From assembly GCF_009725165.1 (NCBI RefSeq), contig NZ_WNZW01000003.1:62001-126000 (forward strand): DNA of 64,000 bases, in the 5' to 3' direction. The stretch is from Paenibacillus woosongensis (GTDB taxonomy: Bacteria > Bacillota > Bacilli > Paenibacillales > Paenibacillaceae). This document shows positions 60,029-62,442 of this stretch, in pieces; position 1 is the stretch's first letter, and each line of letters begins with the position of its first letter. A model generated the notes under the pieces. That model made no database searches. It had not been told where the DNA came from and was given only the letters and a program-made list of their open reading frames with translations. The translations under genes were made by a program, and so were the position numbers.

Positions 60029-61012
60029 ATGTATCGGAATAAACTCATCGCGATATTGCTTGGCTTCGTCGTCGTGATTGTATTTTGGCAGTGGGGAGGA
60101 ATAAGGGCATTCGTGGAAGAAAGCTCGGTTAGGCAAAGCGGTGATTTTGCATTCCGATTAATTGCAGAGGCGAGCGACGATGAACTGATGAAGATCATTC
60201 GGGAGGAAGCCGCGAAACGGCGTGAGGAGCCTGTAGATGCGGTTATAGACCGTGTATGGAAGGCGATCCCAGGCTATAACGGAATTGAAGTGGACATTGA
60301 GAAGACATTTCAAAAAGCCAAAGAGCTCCCGCGGGGGGCCGATATTCCCTACCAGTACCGTGAAGTGAAGCCGCATGTCAATTTGGAGGATTTGGCGCCG
60401 GAGCCGATTTACCGCGGAAATCCAAGCAAACCGATGGTGGCCTTAATGATTAATGTCGCCTGGGGGAACGAGTATATTGTCCCGATGCTGGATACGCTGG
60501 ACGAAGCCAAAGTCAAAGCTACCTTTTTTCTGGATGGGAGCTGGCTGAAGAAAAACGTGGAAATCGCCAAGGAAATCCAGAAGAGGGGACATCAGCTGGA
60601 GAATCATGCCTATTCTCATCCGAACATGAGCCAGTTGGATGATTACCGGGCGAGATTGGAAATTTCCAAAACGAAGGATTTGCTCAAAAGCGAGCTGAAC
60701 GTGGACAATCGCTGGTTTGCGCCGCCGTCCGGAGATTTTGATGCGCGTACCGTACGGCAGGCTGCCGATTATGGATTGAAAACAGTGCTGTGGACGCTGG
60801 ATACCGTTGATTGGAAAAAACCGCTTCCGTCCAGCATCGTTCAGAAAATATCGGCAAAGGTAGCTCCCGGAACGCTTATTTTGATGCATCCGACCGAATC
60901 ATCCAGCCGGGCGTTAAAGGATATGATTGCTGTAATTCGTGAGAAAGGATTAATACTTGGAACCGTAGAGGAGACGTTGTCAAGCGACCGCGTATTGAAA
61001 CCGGGGAGTTGA
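60029..61012 (+). CDS. ylxY: YlxY-like polysaccharide deacetylase family protein, first catalytic motif degenerate
   Basis: Membrane-anchored NodB-fold protein; in B. subtilis ylxY also lies between pnpA and mlpA. The 327-residue product has an N-terminal membrane helix (about 5-22), a spacer to about 130, and a NodB-type domain. Motif 2 is intact in form (ENHAYSHPNM, with His-x3-His), motif 3 is FAPPSGDFD, then LWTLDTVDW, and LILMHPT. Motif 1, normally TFDDG, reads MINVAWGN, so the metal and catalytic Asp pair is absent. It may have lost activity or act differently. AAGGGA precedes ATG 60029. Confidence 0.88.
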   Translation: MYRNKLIAILLGFVVVIVFWQWGGIRAFVEESSVRQSGDFAFRLIAEASDDELMKIIREEAAKRREEPVDAVIDRVWKAIPGYNGIEVDIEKTFQKAKELPRGADIPYQYREVKPHVNLEDLAPEPIYRGNPSKPMVALMINVAWGNEYIVPMLDTLDEAKVKATFFLDGSWLKKNVEIAKEIQKRGHQLENHAYSHPNMSQLDDYRARLEISKTKDLLKSELNVDNRWFAPPSGDFDARTVRQAADYGLKTVLWTLDTVDWKKPLPSSIVQKISAKVAPGTLILMHPTESSSRALKDMIAVIREKGLILGTVEETLSSDRVLKPGS

Positions 61013-61027
61013 GCAAACTTGCTTTTT
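61012..61027 (+). terminator. Weak terminator-like hairpin after ylxY
   Basis: AGCA and TGCT form a 4-bp stem around AACT at the ylxY stop, followed by TTTTTT overlapping the stem end. Short stem; low confidence. Confidence 0.3.
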
Positions 61028-61073
61028 TTGATAGGATAATGTTGGCTTTATGAAGTATGAGGGAATTAAAGTG

Positions 61074-61172
61074 TATGCTTACGAAGTAAGTTTTACTTCG
61101 TAAAACTAAGCTTATGCTTTCGAAGCGAGTTTTACTGCGTAGAATTTCATTGAAGCATAGCTTCGTAAAACT
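61074..61172 (+). repeat. Clustered palindromic repeats upstream of mlpA
   Basis: Two direct copies of a 33-base unit start at 61074 and 61113 (39-base period, 27 of 33 positions identical by eye). Copy 1 contains the 10-bp palindrome TACGAAGTAA-GTT-TTACTTCGTA. A third part, CTTCGTAAAACT at 61161-61172, repeats 12 bases of copy 1 exactly (61096-61107) next to the small hairpin GAAGC-ATA-GCTTC. The mlpA ribosome binding site follows immediately. It looks like a dispersed intergenic palindromic element; copies elsewhere in the genome would confirm that. Confidence 0.75.
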
Positions 61173-61188
61173 TTTAGGAGGGCCTTTC

Positions 61189-62442
61189 GTGCACAAAACA
61201 CAACTTAAAAACGGCCTGCGGGTAGTTATGGAGAAAATTCCAACCTTCCGTTCAGTATCGTTTGGCATATGGGTGAAAACTGGATCACGGAACGAAAGTC
61301 CTGATTTAGGCGGTATTTCTCATTTTATAGAACACATGCTGTTCAAAGGGACCGAGCGGTATGATGCTAAAGAGATCGCCGAGCAGTTTGACGCAATTGG
61401 CGGCAACGTAAATGCTTTTACGTCAAAAGAATATACGTGTTATTATGCTAAAGTGCTGGATGAGCATTTGCCTATTGCGGTGGATGTGTTGTCCGATATG
61501 TTCTTTAGATCGTTGTTCGATGAGGAAGAACTGCGCAAAGAGAAAAACGTCATTTTGGAAGAAATCGCGATGTATGAAGATACGCCGGATGACATGGTCC
61601 ATGACCTAATTTCCGAGGCGGCCTATGGAACTCATCCTCTTGCCCTGCCTATTCTGGGGACGGAGAAGCAGCTGCAGGCAATGGACTCCTCCCATTTGAA
61701 GGCGTTTATGAGGGAAAAATATACGGTCGACAATACGGTCATAAGCATTGCCGGGAACTATGACGATAACATTCTTGAGCTGCTAGAGAAGCACTTTGGC
61801 GATTTTGGCGCTAGGGGAGCGGAGAGCGCTTTGGCTGCGCCCGATTTTCTCGGGGGAATGAAGTTCCATCGTAAGAAGACAGAGCAAAACCATATTTGCT
61901 TATCTTTTCCAGGGTTGCAAATCGGCGATAAAAACCAGTATGCCATGGTGCTGTTGAACAATGCCCTGGGCGGCGGGATGAGCTCGAGGTTGTTCCAGGA
62001 AATCCGCGAGAAGCGGGGACTCGCCTATTCCGTATATTCTTACCACAGCTCACATGCGGATAGCGGTCTTTTTACCGTATATGCGGGGACAGCGCCTAAG
62101 CAAACCAAGGACGTTCTGGAGCTGACCAAGGAAATACTGCATGATGTCTCGCTCAAAGGGCTTACCGAGAGCGAACTAAGCAAAGGGAAAGAGCAGCTGA
62201 AAGGGAGCCTTATCCTAAGCTTGGAGAGTACGAGCAGCCGGATGAACCGGCTTGGCAAGAACGAGCTGATGCTCGGACGCCATTACACGCTGGATGAAAT
62301 TATATCTCGAATCGAAGCAGTAACGATGGAGGATATCGGTGATGTGCTGCAAGGGATGTTTAAACAGCCCTATGCGCTGGCTATGGTCGGTTCCTCTGAT
62401 CGCGTCTTATCAGGAATAAGGAGAGATGAACTTGTCGTATGA
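61189..62442 (+). CDS. mlpA: M16 family zinc peptidase (MlpA, YmxG)
   Basis: Mitochondrial-processing-peptidase-like protease of the pitrilysin family. The 417-residue product has the inverted zinc motif HFIEH (residues 45-49) followed by [46 protein letters not shown] with the distal Glu, and [25 protein letters not shown] in blocks. The start is GTG at 61189 with AGGAGGG upstream; a longer frame runs into the repeats and is rejected. B. subtilis carries mlpA at the same place. It overlaps dut by 11 bases. Confidence 0.94.

Follow-up and report, generated by a model that had tools for sequence, protein, structure and literature searches.

Short hairpin units in the mlpA leader of Paenibacillus woosongensis belong to a dispersed family that is often found directly 5' of Shine-Dalgarno sequences

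Small palindromic repeats are already known from many bacteria. REPs of the GTAG and CGTC super-families are, in the portions of the account drawn on here, palindromic sequences of 20-40 bp that occur in many copies, are often clustered and in many cases are plausibly transcribed; they bear a GTAG or CGTC tag and lie mostly downstream of coding regions, and those of the GTAG type are tied to RAYTs (PMC3733652). The repeats described here resemble REPs in being short and palindromic, in their many copies and in their close spacing, but, as far as that partial account allows a comparison, they differ in carrying no tag, in standing flush against the 5' side of Shine-Dalgarno sequences (52 of 83 array ends) and in having no demonstrated link with RAYTs. 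BOX elements of Streptococcus pneumoniae consist of boxA and boxC around boxB, and in the excerpted text of their description they are, like our units, variable-number tandem modules with predicted stem-loops that lie between genes and show no enrichment for gene function; the Shine-Dalgarno sequence comes up once in that text, in connection with ORFs that BOX creates and not as a target (PMC3049150). By description only, our family differs in consisting of one kind of unit, repeated, whose 3' end lies at the Shine-Dalgarno sequence; in the arrays that we read we noticed no distinct end modules. Like our units, MITEs, of which PMC3733652 names bcr1 and RUP, and Correia elements (named in PMC3049150) are non-autonomous, dispersed and hairpin-forming. 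MITEs are marked by terminal inverted repeats shared with an IS and by a target-site duplication; the unit found here is a single short hairpin with an 11-nt anchor, and a comparison of bare and filled copies by eye did not fix a duplication. Elhai et al. reportedly described in 2008 very small mobile repeats of cyanobacteria that are said also to insert into other repeats, a likeness to our units in size and, if these are mobile, in mobility. Among the titles and abstract openings listed in literature searches, chiefly of freely available papers, none described our family, and an earlier description is possible; searches with unit sequences gave only work on juniper and on chondrogenesis. As judged from the partial descriptions of REPs and BOX, the position flush against the Shine-Dalgarno sequence is the feature that distinguishes the family from both.

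The window (the whole stretch of DNA that was analysed, 64,000 nucleotides) contains a cluster of repeats ahead of a gene for which we keep the name mlpA from the preliminary description. The features of this locus are as follows.

61009..61037 (+): promoter-like stretch TTGAGC-17-TAGGAT, overlapping the ylxY stop codon
61069..61107 (+): unit 1, short form (covariance model R1, 48.4 bits, E 1.9e-11), with anchor AAGTGTATGCTTACGAAG, a stem of 61089-61096 with 61100-61107 and loop TTC; alternative 11-bp hairpin of 61079-61089 with 61093-61103
61108..61175 (+): unit 2, long-loop form (R1, 50.5 bits, E 5.1e-12), with anchor 61108-61125, 5' arm 61128-61135, loop 61136-61164, 3' arm 61165-61172 and T run 61173-61175
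61176..61181 (+): Shine-Dalgarno sequence AGGAGG of mlpA, assigned from the sequence, 3 nt past the hairpin
61189..62442 (+): mlpA-like gene with GTG start at 61189, 16 nt from the hairpin to the start codon

The repeats first noticed here are real. The two direct copies at a spacing of 39 were recovered as 37-nt copies (61069-61105 and 61108-61144) that are 81% identical, and the exact 12-base piece CTTCGTAAAACT stands at both 61096 and 61161. The palindrome is perfect, as had been claimed, but spans 11 bp and not 10 (TTACGAAGTAA-gtt-TTACTTCGTAA, 61079-61103), and it also pairs in the computed fold of the mlpA leader (folding z of -1.37). What had been taken for a third piece exists, but not as a separate one, since in the covariance model it forms the 3' arm of unit 2. 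The cluster as a whole (61069-61175) thus consists of two tandem hairpin units, one short and one long-loop, the latter being one of 45 long entries in the family-wide list of long units, some of which are two short units read as one. With up to three mismatches, AGTTTTACTTCGTAAAACT matches the window three times, each time inside the cluster (61089-61107 on both strands, and 61128-61146), and the number of matches expected from 100 shuffles is 0; these repeats are therefore not due to chance. Elsewhere in the window the covariance model gave only matches with E >= 0.37, and a weaker third match, within the cluster, comes from its palindrome read on the opposite strand.

The promoter-like stretch recurs by eye, with variants, in the leaders of relatives. 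A mechanical promoter scan gave no site at 61009-61037, so it is conservation that argues for this element. The sequence supports a position of the array between this conserved stretch and the Shine-Dalgarno sequence, that is, in the leader, and the array is presumably transcribed and might, as first suggested, shape mlpA expression. The longest ORF for mlpA opens at an ATG at 61114, within unit 2; this is not the likely start, and we prefer the GTG at 61189, although automatic annotation could mis-start the gene at the ATG. The protein read from 61189 has matches in all 98 genomes searched, its own included, and its NCBIfam matches (YfmF, YfmH, PqqF and pitrilysin types) are every one below cut-off.

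The mlpA repeat is a member of a large family of hairpin units that occur singly or in tandem in Paenibacillus-type bacteria. A pattern search of the genome itself with at most one mismatch gave 16 matches, against one for a control pattern, and the exact 29-mer was found in eight stretches of the genome_contigs collection, all from Paenibacillus, although records near our genome may be absent from that collection. The unit pattern is present in 27 of 98 genomes (our own and 97 relatives), belonging to two families of the order, and the control pattern in none. A covariance model built from 91 units (consensus AAGCnTATGCTTACGAAGnnAGTTTTGCTTCGCAAAACTTTn) detected the family in 72 of these 98 genomes at E <= 0.05, with 25 matches in our own; these counts come from a model trained on units from some of the same genomes, with at most 66 candidates scored per genome, and one palindrome may match on both strands, as happens in the window. 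Beyond the family of P. woosongensis, model matches number 21 in G059 (family f2), 17 in G074 (f10) and 63 in G089 (f6), the last being the maximum among several f6 genomes that are rich in matches. In a class-wide draw of 299 genomes, 30 had a match at E <= 0.001; 26 of these are from the family of P. woosongensis, and the other four have one match each.

The short form of the unit measures about 39 nt and the long-loop form, with a true loop of roughly 25-33 nt, about 70 nt. Stems covary. We compared the 8-pair stem of 101 distinct units, taken by exact anchor, with 500 shuffles; most of the loci had been fetched by a pattern that fixes much of the stem, and relatedness remains in the shuffles. 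Stem cells were paired in 84.1% of cases (78.6% in shuffles), 50 cells were changed on both sides (17.6 in shuffles) and the covariation score was 0.250 (0.162 in shuffles), with none of the 500 shuffles as high on any of these three measures. Two further measures were weaker, namely the pairs with double changes (7; 6 of 500 shuffles) and the further pair types (19; 21 of 500). Slid versions of the stem drop to 28-54% paired with covariation scores of at most 0.090, but a slide by -1 is slightly above the true structure in double-change cells (53) and pair types (23). The stem pair that the fetch pattern leaves free occurs as GC, AU, CG and UA. We also considered a pseudoknot or attenuator in the long-loop units, and gene-specific pairing of loop and anchor was unsupported: the complementarity of long loop and anchor was -11.6 kcal/mol, compared with -7.3 for shuffled loops and -10.7 for the loops of other genes, which are thus nearly as complementary.

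The placement of unit copies is not random. Our first sample consisted of 80 regions fetched for unit-pattern matches, leaving aside the matches in our own genome and four further ones (one in G026, three in G046), and held 83 array ends. These are not independent, since orthologous loci and copies of a single larger repeat account for many of them. An AGG-type motif begins at most 6 nt downstream of 79 of these array ends, compared with 10% of positions picked at random in these loci, and a stricter motif follows 72, compared with 2.3%. On the 5' side, read on the other strand, the strict motif was found at none of the 83 ends and the lax one at 20. The 3-nt offset between hairpin and motif seen at mlpA is the commonest (54/79). 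At 52 array ends the motif is the Shine-Dalgarno sequence of an ORF of at least 35 aa in the same direction, and in 50 of these the hairpin ends 14-19 nt from the start codon. Grouped by eye, the 52 cases represent about 19 gene families, with rpmJ, mlpA and one ABC permease recurring across species; the gene upstream, in a crude and noisy open-frame test, has the same direction in 30, the opposite one in 8 and is undecided in 14. A further 25 of the 83 array ends precede AGGAGGAGCGGAG or a close variant of it within a larger dispersed repeat, with no ORF behind, and therefore the motif, and not a gene, is what the sites share. Two loci (L086 and L136) likewise have the motif and no ORF, and four array ends have no motif (L123, L151, L152 and one of the two arrays in L134).

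A second sample was drawn from 40 further places among the model matches listed, mostly in genomes absent from the first set; six proved to be interior to arrays, leaving 34 array ends. The motif was found by script at 30 of these and was missing at four, and 23 array ends adjoin the Shine-Dalgarno sequence of an ORF, this being the script count of 26 minus L313, L326 and L327, which are second-repeat or 5S sites. In L318, L320 and L323 the unit is followed by AGGGGG or GGGGTG and then by a less certain start; these are probably Shine-Dalgarno cases. In L302, L303, L326 and L327 the hairpin ends 5-6 nt ahead of the 5S rRNA start given by Rfam. These units lie between 23S rRNA (a long stretch of it in three of the four, a short piece in L303) and 5S rRNA and come from two families of the order; two of the sites have GAGG and the other two no AGG. 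They might possibly affect 5S processing. In L296, L298, L299 and L313 units stand in a second dispersed repeat and are followed by CAGGCG or CGGGCG. This second repeat reads, with variants, CGCTGTTGTCTCCAGAT ... ATCCGGAGACAGC, with the unit followed by TTTCAGGCG or TTTCGGGCG, and L012 and L013 of our own genome possibly belong to it as well.

Genes named above NCBIfam cut-offs encode ribosomal protein L10, 6-phosphofructokinase, HslV, DapF, PrsW and oligoendopeptidase F, with partial genes for glutamate and leucine tRNA ligases below cut-off; no common function is evident among the genes named by NCBIfam. In our own genome we read units flush to the Shine-Dalgarno sequence at nine genes, namely mlpA, a zinc-type and a sugar-type ABC permease (both names from below-cut-off NCBIfam matches), pfkA, four genes that we take from their sequence to be sdhA, serA, atpG and rpmJ, and an unnamed gene on contig C13.

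The larger dispersed repeat is about 200 bp long, with inverted ends TTCAAAAAGTCGC ... GATCTTTTTGAAC and the core AGGTTGCACGAACCC-AGGAGGAGCGGAG-TGTAGGAGAAGCCTACATGAGCACC. It was seen in L033 (approximately 1430-1700), L048 and L049 (both approximately 1400-1680), L099, L103 and L107, in part in L135-L146, and in L154-L164. It has seven matches in our own genome, where three copies hold units and those in L048 and L049 are bare. Units occupy it in several slots and in both orientations; those of L033 are followed by AGG and AGGAGG on one strand and by GG and AGG on the other, and one slot in L010 does not fit, the unit being followed by GCAGC.

Comparison of related genomes indicates that arrays change at their loci. 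Among 50 mlpA leaders, mostly those with the closest proteins, a full unit was found in 10 and the hairpin only in 4 (two of the latter at E 0.37); the leader of G009 lay outside the stretch read by eye, and the covariance-model search spanned its whole locus. Units are missing in G005, G010, G036 and G053, whose leaders do carry the Shine-Dalgarno sequence and a similar promoter-like stretch. On a tree of 30 mlpA proteins, several of whose forks are weak, unit presence requires four changes. The number of copies differs from species to species, and one and the same stem pair is A-U in some species and G-C in others. At sdhA, serA and atpG all six close genomes carry units or remnants, with gene-specific unit sequences and differing copy number, which indicates that these arrays are old and change locally. 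Since the same genes (mlpA, rpmJ, serA, atpG and an ABC permease) are occupied in several species and the units at sdhA, serA and atpG have gene-specific sequences, the evidence speaks for old vertical inheritance with rare new insertion. The dispersed, mobile-like character suggested in the preliminary description is thus supported by copies in our genome and in relatives and by presence or absence at mlpA. That description had set against it the case of a sequence with no further copies, conserved in all relatives as a leader; whole-genome searches found further copies, and the leaders of relatives differ.

We consider that these observations are best explained by a non-autonomous hairpin element that inserts 5' of AGG(AGG), expands locally and is kept in transcribed leaders, a reading to which we give a probability of roughly 0.48. 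The mlpA cluster would then be two copies of an element that inserts immediately upstream of AGG or AGGAGG-like sequences and keeps a single orientation towards them, so that most surviving copies would lie flush against Shine-Dalgarno sequences and would disturb neither the ribosome site nor its spacing. After entry the array would grow and shrink by local tandem duplication and loss and be carried vertically within the leader; the copies were presumably moved by an enzyme acting in trans. Directed insertion is favoured by the flush position, the single orientation, the AGG-like sequence shared by genes and non-coding repeats and the existence of unit-free leaders, and these suggest that copies arose by insertion at AGG-like sites. 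We count against it the array ends that are motif-free by script (4/83 and 4/34), the two 5S sites that have no AGG and the misfitting slot in L010, and also the signs of old vertical inheritance and the search for a mobilising enzyme, which turned up no PF01797 in our genome and no unit next to the 30 Y1 loci that were read. Carriage by phages was also considered, and a scan of viral contigs, a weak test limited to exact matches of the unit pattern, gave none.

A more specific proposal, which we regard as tentative, is that the element is mobile and targets the Shine-Dalgarno sequence itself (AGGAGG, its near variants and some AGG-like sites), moved by an enzyme new for such repeats. If so, it would equip many genes with a preformed, structured leader whose distance from the start codon hardly varies. 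A family whose end stands near-fixed from the translation starts of many unrelated genes would link the choice of insertion site to the ribosome-binding signal, and would show one element rewriting many leaders while leaving genes unbroken. Leaders with and without units form natural pairs in which the effect of a hairpin bordering the ribosome site can be tested.

The alternative that survives best is that the hairpin at the 5' edge of the Shine-Dalgarno sequence is a selected cis-acting RNA, a functional leader or intercistronic module spread by duplication, which may act on RNA stability or on Shine-Dalgarno exposure, or may present the UGCUUNCGAAG anchor to an RNA-binding factor that recognises it. 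The near-constant distance from hairpin to start codon (50/52), the presence of units at the same genes in several species, atpG stems that by eye are kept while loops vary, and the A-U to G-C swap in the mlpA stem all agree with selection on the RNA. Predicted openness of the Shine-Dalgarno sequence is 0.415, compared with 0.334 when the upstream sequence is shuffled, and is higher in 38 of the 52 cases; the sequence is still more open (0.616) with no upstream sequence at all, and the predicted effect of the hairpin on exposure is small. The named genes, however, have no evident common function, units also occur in the larger repeats, which are non-coding, and immediately ahead of 5S rRNA, related species keep the mlpA Shine-Dalgarno sequence and a similar promoter-like stretch without units, and the complementarity of anchor and long loop is hardly gene-specific. 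We hold a selected cis-acting RNA to be possible, though distinctly short of an even chance.

It is improbable, in our judgement, that the units are palindromes moved by a RAYT or an IS200/IS605-type Y1 transposase, perhaps since lost from our genome, even though short tandem palindromes in many copies and a stem with a conserved unpaired 5' stretch would suit such an enzyme. Y1 genes were found in 28 of the 72 genomes with model matches and in 3 of the 26 without (Fisher p 0.013, with kinship not removed), and because of this association we raised our estimate for such an origin slightly and lowered those for directed insertion (from 0.5 to 0.48) and, slightly, for targeting of the Shine-Dalgarno sequence itself. 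Kinship may account for the association: all 39 genomes of the genus are model-positive and 20 of them have Y1, outside the genus the counts are 8/33 model-positive and 3/26 model-negative, and by unit pattern they are 12/27 positive and 19/71 negative (p 0.14). Moreover, the Y1 transposase family PF01797 has no match in our own genome, the unit-rich genomes G004, G013, G018 and G046 all have no Y1, no unit was seen beside the 30 Y1 loci read (a subset of all Y1 matches in the 98 genomes), and the consensus carries no GTAG or CGTC tag. Given the missing tag, the upstream position at the Shine-Dalgarno sequence, the lack of Y1 in our genome and the Y1 loci read, the comparison with REP elements first proposed for this cluster is not supported in the strict sense. 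A duplication of the mlpA leader alone, by ordinary local tandem events and with chance resemblance elsewhere, would account for two tandem copies whose number varies between species, and is refuted by the 25 model matches in our genome, by the 72 matched genomes and by the same placement of units at other genes.

No Rfam 15 family matched at the units over its gathering score in 17 loci, nor at E values up to 1 in 7 loci. A T-box near serA and a c-di-AMP riboswitch lie elsewhere in their loci, and the T-box leader (L006, 1137-1363) is situated 5' of the serA array of our own genome.
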